NCBI RefSeq assembly: GCF_015265455.1
Contig: NZ_CP054492.1
Span: forward strand, 496,001-560,000
Direction of reading: 5' to 3'
Length of the DNA: 64,000 bases
Source: Candidatus Sulfurimonas baltica
GTDB taxonomy: Bacteria; Campylobacterota; Campylobacteria; Campylobacterales; Sulfurimonadaceae
Below are positions 13,870 through 24,196 of this stretch, one piece after another. Below the pieces are notes generated by a model, which had not been told where the DNA came from, did no database searches, and saw only the letters and a program-made list of their open reading frames with translations. The number at the start of each line of letters is the position of its first letter. Positions within the stretch are counted from its first letter, which is position 1. The position numbers and the translations under genes are program-made.

Positions 13870-14313
13870 TTATTGATATGTTATTTTTCTTATTTTTTCG
13901 CCGTTTTCTTGGCGAATTTTATCATATAACTTCTGATGTTTTAATTTTTCAGCGTGGCTTATAGGAGTTCTTAGTGATTTGTATTCAACTAAAACTCCAT
14001 CATTATAAACACCGGAAACAATTGCTTCAACCCAGTAGTAACCGCCATCTTTACGCATGTTCTTTACAACACCGGTCCACTGTTTTTTACTTTTAATCGT
14101 CTCCCATAAATCTTTGAAAATAGCACTTGGCATATCAGGGTGCCTGACAATATTGTGAGATTTTCCTATAAGCTCTTCAAGCTTATAGCCACTAATCTTG
14201 CAAAATACGTCATTAGCATAAGTAATAAATCCATTTAAATCTGTTCTTGAAATAATAAGCTCATCTTGGGGAACTTCCGTCTCTATTAAAAATTCACTTT
14301 TGTTATAATCCAT
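13870..14313 (-). CDS. PAS-domain sensor protein embedded in the nap operon (Aer-like)
   Basis: A 147-residue cytoplasmic protein made of one PAS domain at about residues 18-125. It shows the Aer-type signature F-C-K-I-S-G-Y, the N-I-V-R-H-P-D-M-P segment, F-K-D-L-W and W-T-G-V-V-K-N. Aer-type PAS domains commonly bind FAD and sense redox state. There is no output domain, only a short helical tail. It overlaps the end of napL by 11 bases, so it is translated as part of the operon. A PAS gene inside nap is not part of the textbook nap set. Confidence 0.8.
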   Translation of the reverse strand: MDYNKSEFLIETEVPQDELIISRTDLNGFITYANDVFCKISGYKLEELIGKSHNIVRHPDMPSAIFKDLWETIKSKKQWTGVVKNMRKDGGYYWVEAIVSGVYNDGVLVEYKSLRTPISHAEKLKHQKLYDKIRQENGEKIRKITYQ

Positions 14314-15277
14314 CTCTTGCTCCTGATTTATTTACACTGTATAGATTAATGATTTTGTCATTACTGGAGACTAAAAAACTATTCTCGTCTATAAACACAA
14401 TATTTGATAGTGTGATTTTATTTCCGCCAAATATCCCTAACGTAGATTTAGTCGTAGTGTCAAATAGAGTTACATTGTTGTTTTCATCACTGGCATAAGC
14501 CACTCTGTTGCCACTTGGTGACAGACCAACACTGTACACTAAAAAATTTGACTGTTTATAGTATGCCAGGTTTGATTGTACATCATATATTACAACCCTT
14601 CTATCTTGACCTGCTGTAGCGATAATTTTATTTTTATAATCAACCTGAAAAACATTATCTAGATTTTGTCCCTCCAGAACTCTTATAAATTTGCCATTTT
14701 TTGTGCTGTGCATCTTTAGATTACCGCTCTCATCTGCAACTACTACTTCACTCTTCTCTTCGTTTAAACAAAAGTCAGAGAACTTAGCGCCACTTACTTG
14801 AATGGACCAGTTTTGCTTAGCAGTTGTCATATCATATGAAATAAGTTCACTACTAAGGAGTCCCAATAAAATTGTGCTTTTATTTAAAAACTTAGCTTTT
14901 GCAATAGTGAGAGCTTTTGAAAAATCAATTAAAAGCTCTGTTTTGTTGTTTTGATGAATATGGACTCTTCTGTACCCTTGTTTTGTTTGTGAAAGAATAA
15001 GTATTTTATCATCAATAATATCAACAGAAAAAACTTTAGAATCAACATCATCACCTATAAAATCTTTTATCTGCTCTAGTTTTATTTGCTTTAGAAGTTT
15101 TTTACTTTTAAAATCAAATATATCAACCGTCCCAGCATCTGTGCCACTGTAAACTTTGCCCTCTTTATATACCAAATCAACAACATTGCCACTGGAGATA
15201 AAGTGTCCAATAGGCTGTTTTATGTCTGCTCCAAACAGAGATGTCAGCAAAATACCTATAAGTATGATTTTATTCAC
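14303..15277 (-). CDS. napL: NapL, periplasmic WD40-like protein of the nap operon
   Basis: I choose the GTG at 15277, which overlaps the napF stop by one base, because it puts a clean Sec signal peptide (N-K-I-I-L-I-G-I-L-L...G-A-D) at the N-terminus. An ATG 36 bases upstream would add 12 residues before the signal. The mature protein has repeating beta-propeller-like segments (G-T-D-A-G-T-V-D-I-F, V-V-A-D-E-S-G-N-L, A-T-A-G-Q-D-R-R-V-V-I-Y, V-A-Y-A-S-D-E-N-N-N-V-T-L-F). NapL occurs in Campylobacterota nap operons; its exact role is uncertain. Confidence 0.85.
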   Translation of the reverse strand: MNKIILIGILLTSLFGADIKQPIGHFISSGNVVDLVYKEGKVYSGTDAGTVDIFDFKSKKLLKQIKLEQIKDFIGDDVDSKVFSVDIIDDKILILSQTKQGYRRVHIHQNNKTELLIDFSKALTIAKAKFLNKSTILLGLLSSELISYDMTTAKQNWSIQVSGAKFSDFCLNEEKSEVVVADESGNLKMHSTKNGKFIRVLEGQNLDNVFQVDYKNKIIATAGQDRRVVIYDVQSNLAYYKQSNFLVYSVGLSPSGNRVAYASDENNNVTLFDTTTKSTLGIFGGNKITLSNIVFIDENSFLVSSNDKIINLYSVNKSGARDGL

Positions 15278-15762
15278 TACCGCACCTTTATATCTATAGC
15301 ATTTGTCGGACATTTACTTATACAAAATCCACAAGATGTACAATTTGAATTAATTTCAGGCATAAACATTGCCTTGAAATCTATGGCGTTGTCTAAACAT
15401 GGGTCTTTGCAAGAAAAACACATAGTATGATTCCAACTAAGACATGTACTTTTATTAATAGTTACATGTATATTAATTGGCTTTTTATCTTCTACATGTA
15501 GAACTCCAAACTCACAAGCTTTTGCACACTCATCACAGTAGGTACATCCGCTCAAAGAGAAGTTTAAGTATGGAGTTCTGTCATCTGCAATTTTTATTAT
15601 TTCTTCTTCACAAACAGTGGCGCATTTTGCGTCACATTTGCTACACTCATTATGAAAAAGAGATTCATCACCAAAGTAAGGCGGTCTTATAAGCTTCTCT
15701 TGCTTGTTCTTTGTATTTAAAGAAGAAACAAGAGAGCTAAAAAGCTCTCTTCTTTTGTTCAT
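15277..15762 (-). CDS. napF: NapF-type ferredoxin-like iron-sulfur protein
   Basis: A 161-residue cytoplasmic iron-sulfur protein with several Cys clusters: C-S-K-C-D-A-K-C near 37, C-T-Y-C-D-E-C near 72, a C-F-S-C-K-D-P-C group near 118 and C-T-S-C-G-F-C near 141. NapF is thought to assist NapA maturation or electron delivery on the cytoplasmic side. The stop overlaps the napL GTG start by one base, and the start follows napB directly. Confidence 0.88.
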   Translation of the reverse strand: MNKRRELFSSLVSSLNTKNKQEKLIRPPYFGDESLFHNECSKCDAKCATVCEEEIIKIADDRTPYLNFSLSGCTYCDECAKACEFGVLHVEDKKPINIHVTINKSTCLSWNHTMCFSCKDPCLDNAIDFKAMFMPEINSNCTSCGFCISKCPTNAIDIKVR

Positions 15763-16464
15763 TTAATGCTCGTTTAAATAACCGGCAGCAGAATCTTTGT
15801 TTGCAATATCTGATTCAGTTACAAAGTTCTCACCATCTTTAATGGTATTTAAACCATCAGTTAGATTAGAACCACTCCATGTAGATAAGTTCGCACCATC
15901 TTTTGAGGTATACTTAGCTTCGAAAGTGTTTTCAACCGCTAAATTACCTTGAGATTGAGGAGCATGACACAGAGTACAATTAAATCTTGAACCCTGAAGT
16001 TTATCTGTTTTTTTAATCGCAACTTCATTTTTGTAGTTGTCCACTGCTTTTTTGAATACACCATCTACAACACCGTGTTTAGGTCTAAAGTCCGTAAAGT
16101 GCGATACAGGAATTGGCGTAGCGCCCATAGAACTTGCAACATCCGGCATGTGACAGCCTGTACACTGGTTATCAGATATTTTAATAGGCAACATCCCATC
16201 AGTGCCATGGGGAATCATTGGTGGAGCATCCTGAAATGCTCTTGTGATTTTAGCACTTGCGCCGGCCATCTCTGTCCTGTACTCAGTTTTTGAAGCGGCA
16301 GTGCTCTCCTCGCTGTAAATATCAGTCTTTCTAAGACCTAAAGACTCCTCAGTTACAGCTTTAACTGTTTTAGTATCACCTGCTGGAGTGGCTTTATCTG
16401 CACAACCAACTATCAGTAGTGTAGTAGCAACTAAACCAATCGTTATGTTTCTTATTGTTTTCAT
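15763..16464 (-). CDS. napB: NapB, diheme c-type cytochrome subunit
   Basis: NapB passes electrons to NapA in the periplasm. Two heme-binding C-x-x-C-H motifs are seen (C-T-G-C-H near 102 and C-T-L-C-H near 164), with further His residues for axial ligation. The signal region ends L-L-I-V-G-C-A-D, which looks like a lipobox, so this NapB may be a lipoprotein rather than freely soluble. The 233 residues exceed the usual 150-180 because of a long linker between signal and first heme. Confidence 0.92.
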   Translation of the reverse strand: MKTIRNITIGLVATTLLIVGCADKATPAGDTKTVKAVTEESLGLRKTDIYSEESTAASKTEYRTEMAGASAKITRAFQDAPPMIPHGTDGMLPIKISDNQCTGCHMPDVASSMGATPIPVSHFTDFRPKHGVVDGVFKKAVDNYKNEVAIKKTDKLQGSRFNCTLCHAPQSQGNLAVENTFEAKYTSKDGANLSTWSGSNLTDGLNTIKDGENFVTESDIANKDSAAGYLNEH

Positions 16465-16465
16465 C

Positions 16466-17293
16466 TTATTCTCCCGTTGTTTTATTTTTTGCTAGTTTTC
16501 GTATTGAAAAATTAAGAGCGTCATCATCACACACTTCAATACATCTAGCACAATTTGTACATTCACCTGATAGTACAGATAAACTCTCTTTGCCAACCAT
16601 ATGTAGTACTTGGTGCTCAGGGCAAACAGTTTTACACTTCATACATAAAGTACAATTCTCTTCTGAATGACTCACTCTTATTAGACTAAAATTGCCTAAC
16701 AGTGAATAGAATCCACCAAGAGGACATACATGTCCGCACCAACCATTCTTTAAGACGAATAAGTCAAAAAGAAATATTATGAGCATTGCTGCCCAACCAA
16801 AACCTAAACCAAACACTATACCTCTATGAAGCATAGATATTGGTGATATAAATTCAAAGGCTGTAATGCCCATAGCAGCTGAGATAATCAAGCTTAATGC
16901 TAAAACCCAGTATCGCATATTTCGCGAAGCTGGTTGTCTTCTTGAAATATCATCTACACCAAGCTTTCTTCTAAGCAGTGCTGCTGCATCTGTAACTATA
17001 TTCACAGGACAGACCCAGCTACAAAAGACGCGACCGCCAATAAGTAGATAAAATATAGCAACTATAAATACACCAATAAGTAAGTCTATGCTTAAAATAG
17101 CACCTGCTGCAAGCATTTGTAGTGCTGCATATGGATCACTTAAAGGAACGGTATTTAAAACAAGAGATGAACTAAGGTTACCCTTTAAGATACTCCATCC
17201 CCAAGCATTAGCCGAAAAATATAAAACTAATATACTTATTTGTGTAAATCTTCTAAAAAACAGATATCGGTAGTTATTCCATAGCGTAGCCAT
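16466..17293 (-). CDS. napH: NapH, membrane quinol dehydrogenase subunit
   Basis: The 275-residue protein has about four membrane helices and the paired C-x-x-x-C-P motifs C-S-W-V-C-P and C-G-H-V-C-P typical of NapH. Two [4Fe-4S] ferredoxin clusters follow near the C-terminus (C-T-L-C-M-K-C and C-T-N-C-A-R-C). NapH oxidises quinol in the cytoplasmic membrane and hands electrons to NapG. Its start overlaps the napG stop by one base. Confidence 0.93.
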   Translation of the reverse strand: MATLWNNYRYLFFRRFTQISILVLYFSANAWGWSILKGNLSSSLVLNTVPLSDPYAALQMLAAGAILSIDLLIGVFIVAIFYLLIGGRVFCSWVCPVNIVTDAAALLRRKLGVDDISRRQPASRNMRYWVLALSLIISAAMGITAFEFISPISMLHRGIVFGLGFGWAAMLIIFLFDLFVLKNGWCGHVCPLGGFYSLLGNFSLIRVSHSEENCTLCMKCKTVCPEHQVLHMVGKESLSVLSGECTNCARCIEVCDDDALNFSIRKLAKNKTTGE

Positions 17294-18081
17294 TAGTACA
17301 ACTCCTCTTTGCTATTTAAAGAATCAATAGCACTCTCTTTGCTTATCTCAGTTTTCGTTTTGATTTCCATTGCGTTTTCTAAACGTTTTTCATCATCTTT
17401 GTCCCAACCTTTGATATAGTAATCACCGGCTTTACCTTGAGCGACCTCTCTTGGAAGTATAAATATAGATGCTTTTTCTGTAACACAGGCTCTTTCACAT
17501 AAACCACAACCAGTACAGATATTAGCATGAACAACCGGCTTCATAAAGGCATGCTTACCAGTTCTCTCATTCTTTTCATATTTAATTGATATAGCCTCGC
17601 CCAGTAAAGGACAAGCTCTATAACAAGCATCACATTGGATGCCCCAAAATGCTATACAGCTCTCACTGTCAATAATAGCTAGACCCATATCAGCCACGTT
17701 TATATCGAGTTTTGCATCTGTTGTAACACTAGATTCATCAAGGGCTCCCGTAGGACATACAGGGACACATGGAATATCTGTGCACATATAACAAGGTATA
17801 TCTCTAGGGATAAAATATGGAGTTCCTAGAGGTTTATTGTCACCTGGTTTAGCAAGCAATAGCGTATCGTACGGACAAGCTAAAACGCATAGCCCACACT
17901 TTATACATGTTTTAAGAAAATCATCTTCTTTTATGGCTCCAGGTGGGCGGAGTAAAAGTTGTGAAGCTGTAACTTCGTCAACATATGCACTCCAAATAAA
18001 ACCACCAAGTGCTGTTATACCAGCACTCCTTGCTATATTGAGGATAAATTTTCTTCTATCGCTTACTAGTTCAGTTTTCAT
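17293..18081 (-). CDS. napG: NapG, periplasmic four-cluster ferredoxin
   Basis: NapG receives electrons from NapH and passes them on towards NapB/NapA. The 262-residue product starts with a twin-arginine-like signal (D-R-R-K-F-I-L-N). Four cysteine clusters follow: C-I-K-C-G-L-C near 59, C-Y-M-C-T-D-I-P-C near 96, C-D-A-C-Y-R-A-C near 151 and C-T-G-C-G-L-C near 190. It sits between napA and napH in the order usual for Campylobacterota. Confidence 0.93.
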   Translation of the reverse strand: MKTELVSDRRKFILNIARSAGITALGGFIWSAYVDEVTASQLLLRPPGAIKEDDFLKTCIKCGLCVLACPYDTLLLAKPGDNKPLGTPYFIPRDIPCYMCTDIPCVPVCPTGALDESSVTTDAKLDINVADMGLAIIDSESCIAFWGIQCDACYRACPLLGEAISIKYEKNERTGKHAFMKPVVHANICTGCGLCERACVTEKASIFILPREVAQGKAGDYYIKGWDKDDEKRLENAMEIKTKTEISKESAIDSLNSKEELY

Positions 18082-18097
18082 TTTTTAGTATAACCTT

Positions 18098-20941
18098 TTA
18101 TGCTTTGTAGATTTTTACAGCACATTTTTTAAAGTCTGTCTGTTTTGACATTGGACACGTCGCATCTAAACAAACTTTGTTGATAAATACTTTTTCATCA
18201 AACCAAGGTACAAATACTAAGCCTTTTGGCGGTCTGTTTCTACCACGAGTTTCAACTCTGGCTTTAACTTTGCCACGTCGAGACTCAATCCAGCACAAGC
18301 CACCTTGAGTAAGATCTTTATTTTTTGCATCGCTAGGGTGCATATAACATAGTGCTTCTGGAACTGCACGATATAGTTCAGGAACACGCATAGTCATAGT
18401 TCCTGAATGCCAGTGTTCTAACACACGCCCCGTATTTAACCAAATATCATACTCTGCATCCGGCATTTCTGGAGGATCCATGTACGGACGAGCAAAAATC
18501 TTGGCTTTATTAGCGAGTGATTTTTTCTCAGAATCTTTATCTTTCCCACCTAGAGTACCACTTTGAAGTGCCTTTGCAATAGTTCCATAGAATGCATGTG
18601 AGTTACCACTCTCTTTAGTTGCTTTTGCTGCATATGGGTCATATTTAGCATTAAATCTCCATGCTGTCTCTTTACCGTCAACAACAGGCCATTTAAGACC
18701 ACGAACTTTATGGTACATGTCAAATGGTGCTAGGTCATGTCCATGCCCACGTGTAAATGCAGCATACTCTTCCCAAAGATATTTTTGGATGAAGAAGCCA
18801 TAACCTTTAAATACTTTTCCATCTGAGCCAACAACATTTCTGCTGTCTCCGTAACCCTCAGTATTGTCATACCCTTTTTGAATTGGGTCGTTTTGGTCAA
18901 GTTTATAAGTTTTAGCAACTTTATTTGCAAATAAAATATCAAACATTGTTGTATCTTCGCTGTAACCCATAGCCTTTGCTTGCTCTATAACACTAGGAAG
19001 CGCATCTTTTCTCGGACCAGATGGTGCCTGCGCACCCCATAAATCTTTAACTGTAAATCTCTTTGAGAGTTCAACCCATTGCCAAGTATCAGACATTGCA
19101 TCGCCAACCGGAAGTACTTGCTGTCTCCAGTGTTGAGTACGGCGTTCAGCATTTCCGTATGCTCCCCATTTTTCATAAATCATAGCCGTTGGAAGGATAA
19201 GGTCAGATACTTTTGCGGATATACCCGGATACCCATCAGATGTAACTATAAAGTTATCCATTTCACGCGCTGCTTTTAACCAGTGAGTTGCAGATCCTGA
19301 ATCTTGATAAGGATTACAAACATTTACCCAAGCAAATTTAATTAAGCCATCTTGGATATCACGGTGGATTTTCATAATATGTTGTTTTCCAACACCATTT
19401 AGTGTCCCATTTGGAACCATCCATTTCTCTTCTGCTATTTTTCTGTGAGCAGGATTTGCAACCATCATATCTGCTGGAAGTCTATGTGTAAACGTACCAA
19501 CTTCACGCGCCGTTCCACATGCAGAAGGCTGGCCTGTTAAACTAAATGCTCCCTCACCAGGATTAGCTTGTTTATTTAATAAAAAGTGAACATTGTAAGC
19601 AAGTGTATTAACCCAAGTACCACGTGTATGTTGGTTCATACCCATTGTCCAAAAAGATACTACTTTTCGTCCCTTTTCAATATACAAGTTAGCTAACTCT
19701 TGAAGTTTTGCTTTGAAGCTATCAAGAGACTCATCGGGATTGCCTTTTGTAATAGTTGCAGTATATTCCAGTGTATATGGTTCTAAAGATTTCTTATACT
19801 CTTCAAAAGAGATTTCCCAGTGACCTAATGTACCAGCAGTATGATTCATAGTGTCACCAGCTTTATAACCAAAAGGCTCTAGTGCTGGTCCCTCTTTATC
19901 AGAAACAGTTGTTTTCATCTCTTTATTGATTGTTTGCATCTCTAAAGCAGAATATTGACCAGCACTACCATCAGCATTGACAGGAGACATAGATTTTTCA
20001 CCGGCTCTTCTCATACCGTAACCGATATTTACCGGACCAGCAGCAAATACCATATGTTTCTTAACAAAATCCCAGTCTATAATACCTTCAGCTTCATCTC
20101 TCATTACAATTTCTCTTGCAATGTAGTTCCATAGAGCTATATCAGTATTTGGAGAGAATATGATTTCCGTATCAGCCAAATCTGAAGTTCTGTGGGTATA
20201 AGTTTGAATACTTATAACTTTTACTCTCTCAGGGTCTGAAAGTTTTCTATCAGTTACACGAGACCATAAAATAGGGTGCATCTCTGCCATATTTGAACCC
20301 CATGTAACTATTGTATCAGTTAGTTCAATATCATCATAACAGCCAGAAGGTTCATCAACACCAAATGTTTGGTAAAAACCAACAACAGCTGATGCCATAC
20401 AGTGACGTGCATTTGGATCAATAGCGTTTGATCTAAAACCTGCTTTCATCATTTTTTGAGCTGCATAACCTTCCATAATAGTATATTGACCAGAGGCGAA
20501 AATACCAATTCCTTCAGGTCCACCATGCTTAAGTGCTTTTTTGATGTTTATCGCCATCTCATCAAAAGCTCTTTCCCAAGATATAGGTGCAAATTTACCT
20601 TTTTTGTCAAAGTTGCCATTTGCATCCATTCTAAGTAATGGCTTGGTTAGCCTGTCGGCACCGTACATAATCTTTGCATTAAAGTAACCCTTAATACAGT
20701 TTAGACCACGATTAACCGGTGCCGCAGGGTCACCTTTAACAGCTACAATCTTACCATTTTTAGTAGCCATCATAATACCACAACCCGTACCACAGAAACG
20801 ACAAGCTGCCTTGTCCCATCTCCAGTCGCCTTCAGCTTGAGCTGCTGCTGCTTGTAGGTCTGCCGGTACACTCATACCAATTGCCGCTGCCGCAGATGCC
20901 GCCGCTGAACTTTTAAGAAATTCTCTTCTAGAAAGTGTCAT
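18098..20941 (-). CDS. napA: NapA, catalytic subunit of periplasmic nitrate reductase
   Basis: NapA reduces nitrate to nitrite at a bis-MGD molybdenum centre. The 947-residue protein begins with a Tat signal (S-R-R-E-F-L-K, then an Ala-rich core). The [4Fe-4S] motif C-x2-C-x3-C-x27-C starts near residue 47 (C-R-F-C-G-T-G-C). The Mo-ligating cysteine is in P-S-G-C-Y-D-D near 199. Conserved Nap blocks such as N-M-A-E-M-H-P and M-G-M-N-Q-H-T-R-G are present. AGGAGA precedes the ATG. It is the first gene of the operon, with its own promoter region upstream. Confidence 0.96.
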
Positions 20942-20985
20942 ATTCTCTCCTGTTAGATAATATTTTTTGTTATGTATAGATTAAC

Positions 20986-21034
20986 AAGAAGAAGTATAGC
21001 ACAGTTTTTTTTTAATGCACTTGACTTGTGTCAA
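20986..21034 (-). promoter_or_regulatory. napA promoter with Crp/Fnr-type palindrome at about -41.5
   Basis: Plus-strand 21021-21034 is a perfect dyad, TTGAC-N4-GTCAA. On the minus strand, TATACT (plus 20993-20998), preceded by TGC, makes an extended -10 box. A start about 7 bases downstream falls near 20986, which puts the dyad centre close to -41.5, the class II activator position. That leaves a 45-base leader with AGGAGA before napA. The half-site fits the recognition class of regulators with an E-x-x-S-R helix, such as the one encoded at 22108-22776. Confidence 0.65.
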
Positions 21035-21100
21035 AATCTTAGTCTTTTAAATTAAGTTATATTTTATATATTGAAAAATGAGGCTGATTTATGGGGATAT

Positions 21101-22111
21101 TTATGGTTTAACTATTTGGCAACTTTTAGTAAGTTTCTCTAACTCTTTTTTTAGGTTTGAAAGTTTATGTGTTGAGTTTATTAAAACTTCTGTTGATTCT
21201 ATAACAATATCTTCACTATTATTGAGGTGTTTGGATGCCAATGAATTGTCTTGCAGTTCATTTATTATAGTATCAAACTCATCTGTTAGCTCCTCTAGTT
21301 TGGAAGATGCGTATTGTGATTGTCTCAGAGCTTCGTCGGAATGCTCTATGGCAGAGTTTATTTTTTGAATAAAGCAATTAATAGTACCCCCAACTTCAAC
21401 TATTTCACTTTCGCTTTCAGGTTTAATTTTTATTGGTGTAATCTTGGATATGTTTTCATTATTAATCAGTGTTTTGGAGTGTTGTATAAAAGAGTCTACA
21501 TGTGACTCCATGGCTCTAAGTTGTATAAGTGAATATAAAAGCAAAATGAAAAATGTAAAGGCTGATAAGTATTGAAAAGTTTTTATAAAGTCAGATTTTT
21601 CTTCACTATGGTTTGTGTATAGTGTTACAAGTTTATCTACACTCTCAAGCAGTATGGTATTTTGGTTATATATAGATTTAACCACTTCTTCTAGCTCTTT
21701 ACTTGTGTTTAACTTTGAACTACTTAGAAGTTTAAACTTTTGAATGTTTTCATAAAAGTCATCCCAAAGTTTATTTACACTATTAAGTTGTGTCAAAATA
21801 CTATATGTATCAACTGCTGATATCTCTTTATCTTTGTCCCCGTATTTTAAAATTTTGAGACCATTAATAAACTCAGCAGCAGCGGAATCTAACTCAATAA
21901 AATCTTTATTTGAACTATGATATATATAAAAAACATTTTTAGCAATTTTTTGAGTCAACATTCTTTGTTTTCCAACAATATTTACTACTAGAGCGTCTTT
22001 TGTATTTTGCTGGTTTAGGTATATTGTCGTTGCTATTACGCTGATCATTAGCATTGTTAGCATCGCGCCTAAGAGCTTGATTTTTGTGCTCATTTTTGTA
22101 GTTTTTTTCAT
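21101..22111 (-). CDS. Membrane sensor with PilJ/NarX-like periplasmic domain, no kinase
   Basis: The 336-residue protein has two membrane segments, at about 10-30 and 178-197. Between them is a helical periplasmic domain starting with V-N-I-V-G-K-Q-R-M-L-T-Q-K-I, the signature of the type IV pili/NarX N-terminal family; in NarX the equivalent P-box binds nitrate. The cytoplasmic part (about 200-336) is HAMP-like and coiled coil, with no histidine kinase, GGDEF or methyl-accepting signalling domain. The start overlaps the stop of the Crp/Fnr gene by 4 bases (ATGA). With nap directly downstream, nitrate sensing is a reasonable inference. Confidence 0.75.
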   Translation of the reverse strand: MKKTTKMSTKIKLLGAMLTMLMISVIATTIYLNQQNTKDALVVNIVGKQRMLTQKIAKNVFYIYHSSNKDFIELDSAAAEFINGLKILKYGDKDKEISAVDTYSILTQLNSVNKLWDDFYENIQKFKLLSSSKLNTSKELEEVVKSIYNQNTILLESVDKLVTLYTNHSEEKSDFIKTFQYLSAFTFFILLLYSLIQLRAMESHVDSFIQHSKTLINNENISKITPIKIKPESESEIVEVGGTINCFIQKINSAIEHSDEALRQSQYASSKLEELTDEFDTIINELQDNSLASKHLNNSEDIVIESTEVLINSTHKLSNLKKELEKLTKSCQIVKP

Positions 22112-22776
22112 GATAATCCACCATTATATATATTCTGAAGTAACTTTTTATCAAGAATAGTGACGATTGAGTTTTCAATATTAATGATAGAACTTCTTTT
22201 TAATTTTTTTAAAACTCTAGATAGTGTCTCCGGTTGAATATGTAACATAAAAGAGACTTCAGTCCTTTTAAGTGTGTTAAACATTTCCAAATCATCACAC
22301 AGGGTAAAAGCAACTTTTGCAGTTGCATCAAATACCAACTCCCTGTTTACAACACAGTGAAGTTGCTGAGTTTTTGAGAGTATCTCATTTATGAACTCAC
22401 TGTTTAGTATGTTTTTAGATAAGAACTGTGTTTTAAACTCTAAAAAATCAACTTCAAGTATAGTACTGTCTTCCATAAATTCAGCATTGGAAAAACAGTG
22501 AATTATATTATTGTCTAGAGTGGTTAGTTCTGAAATAAGAGAGTTTTTATGTATATTGTAAAGAAAGATTTCATTCTCAAACTTATCTATTTTATAAACT
22601 TTTAAAAGTCCTGAGACTAAAAAAAATATTTTATTATTAGTGTCATTCTCATAATAGAGTATTGATTTTTTTGGGTACTTAACTACCGTTGAGATGCTAT
22701 CAATTATATTTAACATATCACTATCAAGTGAAGCAAAAAAAGATAGTTGTCTTATATGATATTGTTTTTCATTCAT
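22108..22776 (-). CDS. Crp/Fnr-family transcription regulator
   Basis: A 222-residue protein with an N-terminal cyclic-nucleotide-binding-like beta-barrel (about 10-125), a dimer helix and a C-terminal HTH at about 165-205. The recognition helix reads P-E-T-L-S-R-V-L-K-K-L; the E-x-x-S-R pattern is that of FNR, which reads TTGAT half-sites. There is no N-terminal Cys cluster, so it is not an oxygen-labile FNR. It is the first gene of a pair with the NarX-like sensor, upstream of nap, and a matching palindrome lies before napA. Candidate regulator of nap. Confidence 0.85.
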   Translation of the reverse strand: MNEKQYHIRQLSFFASLDSDMLNIIDSISTVVKYPKKSILYYENDTNNKIFFLVSGLLKVYKIDKFENEIFLYNIHKNSLISELTTLDNNIIHCFSNAEFMEDSTILEVDFLEFKTQFLSKNILNSEFINEILSKTQQLHCVVNRELVFDATAKVAFTLCDDLEMFNTLKRTEVSFMLHIQPETLSRVLKKLKRSSIINIENSIVTILDKKLLQNIYNGGLS

Positions 22777-22909: not shown

Positions 22910-24196
22910 ATGAATTTTATAGAAGCATTAAAGCTTAAAAGTAAACTTTTTTTTATATTTGTACTTATAGCAGTTGGTCTGTTCTTTATCGGTATCATGG
23001 GTACAATAAATCTTAATTCAATGAAAAAAAACTTAGATGCCTTATACTTTGGTTCTTTAGTCCCTGTTATAGAACTTAATTCAATCTTACAAATATATCA
23101 TTCAGGTTTGGCAAATACAATATACAGGGCTAAAAATTCTGAGATTACCCCTAGCGAAGTTGAATCAAAGATTCAACTTTCAGTAAAAAACATTAGCAGA
23201 GAGTGGGAAAAGTATGAATCTCACTTTAAAAGAGACAAAGAGCTTGACTATGTTGAGTATACAGCACTGGAAATCAAGGCGACGAATAAATATTTTTATA
23301 AAATAATAAAAGCTTTGTCTGATGGTCACGATATTAAAGAGATATCTATAGTAAGTTTAGAGAAAAAAATCTCACATATCAACAAAGTAGTTAATAAACT
23401 CATTGCTTATGAAGTGAGTGTCGCCAAGTATGAGAGAAAGAAATTTATAGATGTTTATGATTATTTACTCGTGCAAGTTGGTTTTATACTGGCAGTTGTA
23501 ATCTTGGGAGTTATGCTGATATCATATTATGTCTTTAAAAGTATTCAAAAAGATCAGACAGCATTAGAGGTGGCAACAAAGAGATTGAAGATAGCAAATA
23601 AAAAACTGGAAAATGTCTCATATACAGACTCATTAACAAATCTTTACAACAGAAGATATTTTAATCTAGTTTATGACAGAGAGTTAAAGAGAGCAAAGAG
23701 AAGTAACACATATATAACTTTTATGATGTTGGATATTGACTTCTTTAAGCAGTATAATGACACTTATGGGCATATTGAGGGAGATTTTGCTCTTAAGAGT
23801 GTTGCAAAAGTATTGCAAGATATACTAAAAAGACCCGGAGATTTTGTATTTAGACTTGGCGGAGAGGAGTTCGGAATATTACTCACTGAGACAGATGAAT
23901 CCAATAGTGCAAAGTTGGCTAGAGATATCTGCAACTCTGTTAGAGGAAGAGAAATCAAACACTCAGGCTCTAAAGTCAATGAGTTTGTCACCATCTCTAT
24001 CGGTGTTGTTTGCTGTATCGCTGATGAAGCATTAAATGATGAGATACTTTTGTCTCGTGCTGATGAGATGCTATATAAAGCAAAAGACAGCGGAAGAGAC
24101 CGTTATAATATAACTACAAATGTAAGTGAAGCAAAAACTGCCAAGGTAAAGAGTGAAGAGAAAAAAGAAGATGGGAAAAAAGAGTTTATTGCTTAG
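22910..24196 (+). CDS. Diguanylate cyclase with membrane-bound sensor domain
   Basis: The 428-residue protein has two membrane helices (about 14-34 and 188-210) enclosing a four-helix-bundle-like periplasmic sensor domain. A GGDEF domain fills about 235-405. The active site is G-G-E-E-F. An inhibitory R-x-x-D site (R-P-G-D) lies five residues before it, so the enzyme should make cyclic di-GMP and be subject to product inhibition. The tail is Lys/Glu-rich. It is transcribed divergently from the Crp/Fnr-sensor pair; its signal is unknown. Confidence 0.9.
   Translation: MNFIEALKLKSKLFFIFVLIAVGLFFIGIMGTINLNSMKKNLDALYFGSLVPVIELNSILQIYHSGLANTIYRAKNSEITPSEVESKIQLSVKNISREWEKYESHFKRDKELDYVEYTALEIKATNKYFYKIIKALSDGHDIKEISIVSLEKKISHINKVVNKLIAYEVSVAKYERKKFIDVYDYLLVQVGFILAVVILGVMLISYYVFKSIQKDQTALEVATKRLKIANKKLENVSYTDSLTNLYNRRYFNLVYDRELKRAKRSNTYITFMMLDIDFFKQYNDTYGHIEGDFALKSVAKVLQDILKRPGDFVFRLGGEEFGILLTETDESNSAKLARDICNSVRGREIKHSGSKVNEFVTISIGVVCCIADEALNDEILLSRADEMLYKAKDSGRDRYNITTNVSEAKTAKVKSEEKKEDGKKEFIA

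Follow-up and report, generated by a model that had tools for sequence, protein, structure and literature searches.

A PilJ-domain membrane receptor without a kinase is encoded with an NssA-type Crp/Fnr regulator upstream of nap in Candidatus Sulfurimonas baltica: a candidate phosphorelay-free nitrate-sensing module

The window, which here means the whole 64,000-nucleotide stretch of Candidatus Sulfurimonas baltica DNA that was analysed, carries a gene for a Crp/Fnr regulator and a gene for a membrane sensor directly upstream of napA, in the order regulator-sensor-napA on one strand. The two reading frames overlap by 4 bp, as an earlier note on this DNA had stated, and the end of the sensor gene lies 159 bp from napA. 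The features are given below in window coordinates, with their basis in brackets.

22108..22776, minus strand: Crp/Fnr regulator of 222 aa, NssA orthologue (Pfam, fold, identity to the NssA candidate)
22216..22236, minus strand: recognition helix QPETLSR, regulator residues 181-187 (conservation in paired regulators)
22108..22111, minus strand: 4-bp regulator/sensor overlap, ATGA (sequence)
21101..22111, minus strand: membrane sensor of 336 aa with a PilJ domain and without a kinase (Pfam PilJ, AF2 model)
22019..22090, minus strand: transmembrane helix 1, about residues 8-31 (sequence; long model helix 7-65)
21950..21985, minus strand: N-box VNIVGKQRMLTQ, residues 43-54, with Arg50 as predicted nitrate ligand
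21512..21574, minus strand: transmembrane helix 2, about residues 180-200 (sequence; model helix 137-217)
21140..21232, minus strand: C-terminal motif, residues 294-324 (K..L...SED.VIES.E.L......L..LK..L), candidate output or docking element (conservation)
21021..21034, no strand assigned: TTGACTTGTGTCAA, predicted regulator site upstream of napA (sequence, conservation)
20993..20998, minus strand: -10-like TATACT, which sets the site at -41.5 (sequence)
18098..20941, minus strand: napA, first gene of napAGHBFL (14303-20941)

Two further genes flank this region. A diguanylate cyclase gene with a predicted membrane sensor part (22910-24196) is divergent from the regulator and is kept there in most Sulfurimonas; a gene for a stand-alone PAS-domain protein of 147 aa (13870-14313) stands right after napL and reappears next to nap in many Sulfurimonas and Arcobacteraceae.

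The regulator matches the Pfam families cNMP_binding and HTH_Crp_2, and its fold is that of FNR/CRP proteins (Z 20 to A. fischeri FNR). It combines a Crp/Fnr fold and a DNR-type helix-turn-helix with a lack of Fe-S cysteines; no cysteine occurs in its first 90 residues, so that an FNR-type cluster is absent and FNR-type oxygen sensing by the regulator was ruled out. The earlier note had described an FNR-like E-x-x-S-R recognition helix in a protein without a Cys cluster, and this helix was located at Q181-PETLSR-187; Q181, P182 and T184 to R187 are conserved at about 100% among 173 paired regulators, and Q181 is rare among unpaired Nss relatives.

The note's assignment to the Crp/Fnr class stands, with the correction that the protein belongs to a known family. 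Its identity to the W. succinogenes NssA, NssB and NssC candidates is 46, 30 and 25%, respectively, which by sequence makes it an orthologue of NssA and not of NssB or NssC. For two genomes, G167 and G053, the identity matrix of the Crp/Fnr proteins (43.7/29.6/26.0 and 33.2/50.3/28.4) equals that published for the NssA/B/C proteins of N. labii and W. succinogenes (44.8/29.2/26.1 and 33.3/50.0/28.2; PMC11539149) within about one percentage point, and the regulator of the G167 pair was therefore taken to be the NssA of W. succinogenes; its neighbour there is a 460-residue tandem-PilJ sensor (locus L152). In W. succinogenes (Kern and Simon 2016, as seen through PMC6682613, PMC8139620 and PMC11539149), NssA is reported to be required for the response to nitrate and to drive the induction of nap, nrf and nos, and a 2021 review lists the mechanism of nitrate sensing as open (PMC8139620).

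No PilJ partner was found at NssB or NssC loci. The gene immediately upstream of nosZ in W. succinogenes encodes NssC and has no PilJ partner beside it (L275), at a position where Sulfurimonas has an NssA-like pair. Sulfurospirillum loci (L124, L146 and others) carry an NssB-like regulator upstream of nrfHAI and an NssA-sensor pair downstream, which puts one Nss protein on either side of nrf.

The periplasmic part of the sensor matches PilJ (PF13675) at residues 31-124 (E 7.7e-19; 68.3 bits against a gathering score of 26.6), and no other PilJ protein was found in the genome. A P-box-like V-G-K-Q-R-M-L-T-Q motif between two membrane helices, proposed previously, was recovered within residues 43-54: the box VNIVGKQRMLTQ, which begins at V43, contains Gly47 and Arg50 of the G-x-x-R nitrate motif and departs from the strict published pattern [IVL]-[ND]-x-A-G-x-Q-R-M-L-[ST]-Q only in that Val46 replaces Ala, the other 11 positions fitting. 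The strict pattern fits 59 of 90 single-PilJ relatives, and a relaxed form fits 86 of 90 single-PilJ sensors and 60 of 62 tandem sensors. An AlphaFold2 model (mean pLDDT 76.6) comprises the first transmembrane helix, a periplasmic four-helix bundle, the second transmembrane helix, a HAMP-like connector and helices 235-286 and 292-332; its top PDB matches are the McpN ligand-binding domain and the NarQ sensor-TM-HAMP structure. Box and fold together point to nitrate binding by the periplasmic domain, with Arg50 as the predicted ligand where the two subunits of the dimer meet.

The protein ends about 130 residues past the second transmembrane helix, and the model is weak in this cytoplasmic part (pLDDT under 60 in places), the last helix being of low confidence. 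Pfam found no kinase, MCP or other domain in the window sensor besides PilJ, nor an MCPsignal match that would indicate the signalling hairpin tip. A profile of 98 cytoplasmic positions retrieves the sensors; it also picks up, at weaker scores, the HAMP domain of chemoreceptors together with the helix after it (two genomes, E 1.2e-8 and 5.5e-8), which suggests that the sensor is chemoreceptor-like and stops short of the kinase-control tip. Its earlier description as a kinase-less NarX/PilJ-type sensor is corrected in that the cytoplasmic part is closer to a tip-less chemoreceptor than to NarX minus its kinase.

The same note had described the sensor as lacking any kinase or output domain. Kinase and Pfam output domains are indeed absent, but the C-terminal end forms a conserved candidate output motif, E-D-x-x-I-x-S-x-E-x-L...L-x2-L-K-x2-L, which in the loci examined is unique to these sensors. 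Residues E300, D301, I304, S306, E308, L310, L317, L320, K321 and L324 are common to the nap, nos and tandem sensor types. Among the reading frames of the loci, the corresponding profile matches 186 of 194 paired sensors, and its only other convincing matches are sensor fragments and one sensor overlooked by the pairing step; the 8 paired sensors without a match are mostly truncated or masked; L189 is a 330-residue frame cut at a contig end.

The distribution of the pair was followed in 397 Campylobacterota genomes; the loci retrieved were 120 stretches of about 18 kb each, plus a further 80 named ones. Regulator and sensor are adjacent in well over 100 of the 397 genomes, a pairing rate that is no unbiased estimate because loci were picked by similarity to the window's own proteins. 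In 178 non-redundant loci the two genes are adjacent, codirectional and ordered regulator first; 100 of these pairs overlap or abut, 77 are separated by 1-30 bp, and the -4 overlap recurs in 43 of 115 loci. Of the 142 loci whose flanks extended 4.5 kb or more both ways, 111 had a gene of the nap, nos, nor/nir or nrf type within 4.5 kb: mostly napA, with norB/nirS in some Arcobacteraceae and nrfI/nrfA in Sulfurospirillum. About a fifth of the flanked loci, notably those of Helicobacter-like and gut Campylobacteraceae, have no N-oxide gene within that distance. Genomes with the pair nearly always have napA (exceptions noticed: G117 and G355), and napA occurs in 332 of the 397 genomes, many of them without the pair. 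In two genomes (L165, L166) an NssA-like regulator, nap and the site are present and the sensor was not detected. The expectation that the pair would accompany nap, and not be found routinely away from it, is thus borne out in part: regulator and sensor form a conserved, nap-linked unit, but it often stands at nos, nor/nir or nrf, mostly still inside N-oxide respiration. A divergent version of the pair, with a regulator at 31-33% and a sensor box that reads HIVGKERML, was also seen downstream of nap, adjoining the PAS gene (L182, L183).

Upstream of napA, a perfect TTGAC-N4-GTCAA site occupies 21021-21034, and TATACT at 20998-20993 on the minus strand centres it at -41.5, so that both the palindrome and its previously predicted position relative to the napA promoter were confirmed in the sequence. 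Exact TTGA-N6-TCAA sites precede napA in 71 of 94 genes (1.1 in shuffles) and nosZ in 19 of 21 (0.4 in shuffles), and exact TTGAC-N4-GTCAA has only 2 copies in the 2.74-Mb genome; the napA count and this rarity place the window site above chance. The second copy (1014312) was rejected as a regulatory site, as it falls at the boundary of two overlapping reading frames in a pilus- or secretion-looking cluster with no regulatory link seen. An anchored alignment of 60 napA promoters contains a -10-like element spaced as for a class II site, and the published N. labii sites, which begin 48-49 bases upstream of the transcription start (PMC11539149), have the same geometry as the window site. The stretch from the napA -10 to the ribosome site holds an inverted repeat TTGTTA-N9-TAACAA (20967-20987), and at the same position in loci L065-L079 other Sulfurimonas carry a conserved GTTAATGGACACCTTAAC; this leader element could be a second operator or a 5' UTR hairpin.

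Sulfurimonas, and one relative as well, have a second, paralogous pair that precedes nosZ, as seen in 17 of the 18 loci that had flanks. Its sensor box reads N-x-Q-K-x-F-T-Q-E-I-S-K-N, with Lys in place of the nitrate-binding Arg in 19 of 19 sensors and Asn for Gly in most; the C-terminal motif is retained, and Pfam fails to recognise PilJ in the three such sensors examined. In NarX, Arg to Lys abolishes ligand sensitivity, and NarQ R50K crystallises in the apo form (PMC7247690). The change is not required by the nos position, because intact-box pairs stand at nosZ in two Arcobacteraceae loci (L105, L222), which may derive from the same genome. That N2O might be the ligand of the nos-linked sensor is a guess from position only.

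Evidence for coupling between the two proteins of the pair comes from gene order and from their trees. The regulator tree agrees with the sensor tree at r = 0.82, whereas permutations reached 0.15 at most, and the partial correlation given NapA distance is 0.80 (86 loci). Such congruence, which partly reflects the shared ancestry of neighbouring genes, supports joint inheritance and not contact. Inter-protein co-variation in 173 pairs (mutual information with APC) gave top scores equal to those of clade-preserving shuffles. Seven regulator positions (N97, R145, F149, L163, N167, Q181 and R194) set paired regulators apart from 39 mostly unpaired relatives, a comparison set that contains a few regulators actually paired or cut by contig ends. 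N97, R145, F149 and N167 are invariant in paired regulators and absent from most unpaired Nss proteins. The hinge at residues 143-148, the lowest-confidence part of the regulator's AlphaFold2 model, contains or adjoins R145 and F149, and this area is a plausible candidate for a switch or contact region.

We take direct coupling to be the simplest reading of the pair because it comes without an accompanying kinase, adaptor or cyclase. The proposal of a nitrate sensor signalling to a Crp/Fnr protein without phosphorelay, as first put forward, gains from the nitrate box, the conserved nap-linked unit, the absence of a phosphorelay partner encoded beside the sensor, the gene order and the congruent trees, but draws no signal from co-variation. 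On balance we consider it probable that the pair forms a phosphorelay-free module, in which HAMP and the C-terminal stub would pass the periplasmic nitrate signal straight on to NssA; nitrate binding, direct contact and the sign of regulation are the inferred parts of this model. A dimeric membrane receptor would bind periplasmic nitrate in its PilJ/N-box four-helix bundle, via Arg50 at the dimer interface, and the signal would pass along the second transmembrane helix to the HAMP domain and the short cytoplasmic helical stub, whose conserved C-terminal E-D-x-x-I-x-S-x-E-x-L motif may act directly on the NssA-type partner. With nitrate present, NssA would be released or switched on, bind TTGAC-N4-GTCAA at -41.5 and, from there, activate nap as a class II activator. 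Membrane sequestration of NssA without nitrate is slightly favoured over activation, because no sensor was detected in two genomes (L165, L166) that keep an NssA-like regulator, nap and the site; another sensor may serve there.

Alternatively, the sensor could reach the regulator indirectly, via a soluble component encoded elsewhere (a chemotaxis-like adaptor, c-di-GMP or a nucleotide), the operon providing common control only. The divergent diguanylate cyclase gene and the chemoreceptor-like cytoplasmic helices favour such a route, as does precedent: PilJ of P. aeruginosa acts on the Crp protein Vfr via cAMP. Nevertheless, a search of the genome yielded no class III cyclase, and the regulator sequence lacks the CRP cAMP-binding signature, which led us to reject a cAMP route; the diguanylate cyclase was dismissed as a part of the system because it was not seen beside the pair outside Sulfurimonas, in other families; and the sensor has no CheA/CheW-binding tip. 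We therefore regard an indirect route as unlikely.

Still less probable is that the regulator does its own sensing, through NO/haem as has been suggested for DNR-like proteins, while the sensor tunes another process, such as nitrate chemotaxis or Nap assembly. DNR is among the closest solved relatives of the regulator by sequence, the NssB and NssC loci manage without a PilJ partner, and sensor-less NssA-like regulators occur in L165 and L166. Against this stand the fact that regulators of this type are almost always paired with the sensor, the four invariants of paired regulators that most unpaired Nss proteins lack, and the paralogous pairs at nos, which stay together; a role in chemotaxis would moreover require the kinase-control tip that the sensor lacks. 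That the sensor is a functionless, decayed NarX or chemoreceptor remnant hitch-hiking in the operon, as its want of a recognisable output domain might suggest, is hardly credible given its retention across 178 non-redundant loci, the invariant N-box and C-terminal residues, and the C-terminal motif shared by tandem-PilJ versions.

If direct signalling from receptor to NssA is correct, a periplasmic signal reaches DNA needing neither a kinase nor a second messenger. A wider speculation, which we think improbable as a whole, is that tip-less chemoreceptor-like receptors form a dedicated class controlling Crp/Fnr factors by direct contact of the C-terminal motif, with the nosZ-linked Lys version retuned, possibly to N2O, as a membrane N2O receptor. 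The Arg-to-Lys paralogue in any case offers a natural comparison for N2O sensing, of relevance to N2O-consuming bacteria with clade II NosZ.

Several known systems share parts of this arrangement. NarX and NarQ have the G-x-x-R box and the sensor-TM-HAMP layout of the window sensor (fold matches 5jgp and 5iji), whereas the latter has no Pfam match to a GAF, DHp or ATPase domain and no response regulator beside it. McpN, the P. aeruginosa nitrate chemoreceptor (PMC6381276, 6GCV), likewise combines a PilJ four-helix domain, an N-box and chemoreceptor-like helices; the window sensor differs in lacking the CheA/CheW signalling tip, in being encoded with a Crp/Fnr regulator and in its own C-terminal motif. 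NtcA-PipX (2xko) provides a Crp-family protein controlled by protein contact, as proposed here, but PipX is soluble and unrelated to the window sensor, and no membrane receptor is involved. The Nss system of W. succinogenes is another, of which the window regulator is the NssA orthologue, with the same TTGA-N6-TCAA site and nap linkage. A full-text literature search returned no paper treating NssA together with PilJ, and the open literature searched mentions no membrane receptor partner for the W. succinogenes proteins; the window pair includes a candidate for one, and this conserved, usually adjacent nitrate-box receptor offers a concrete, testable two-gene answer to how NssA perceives nitrate.
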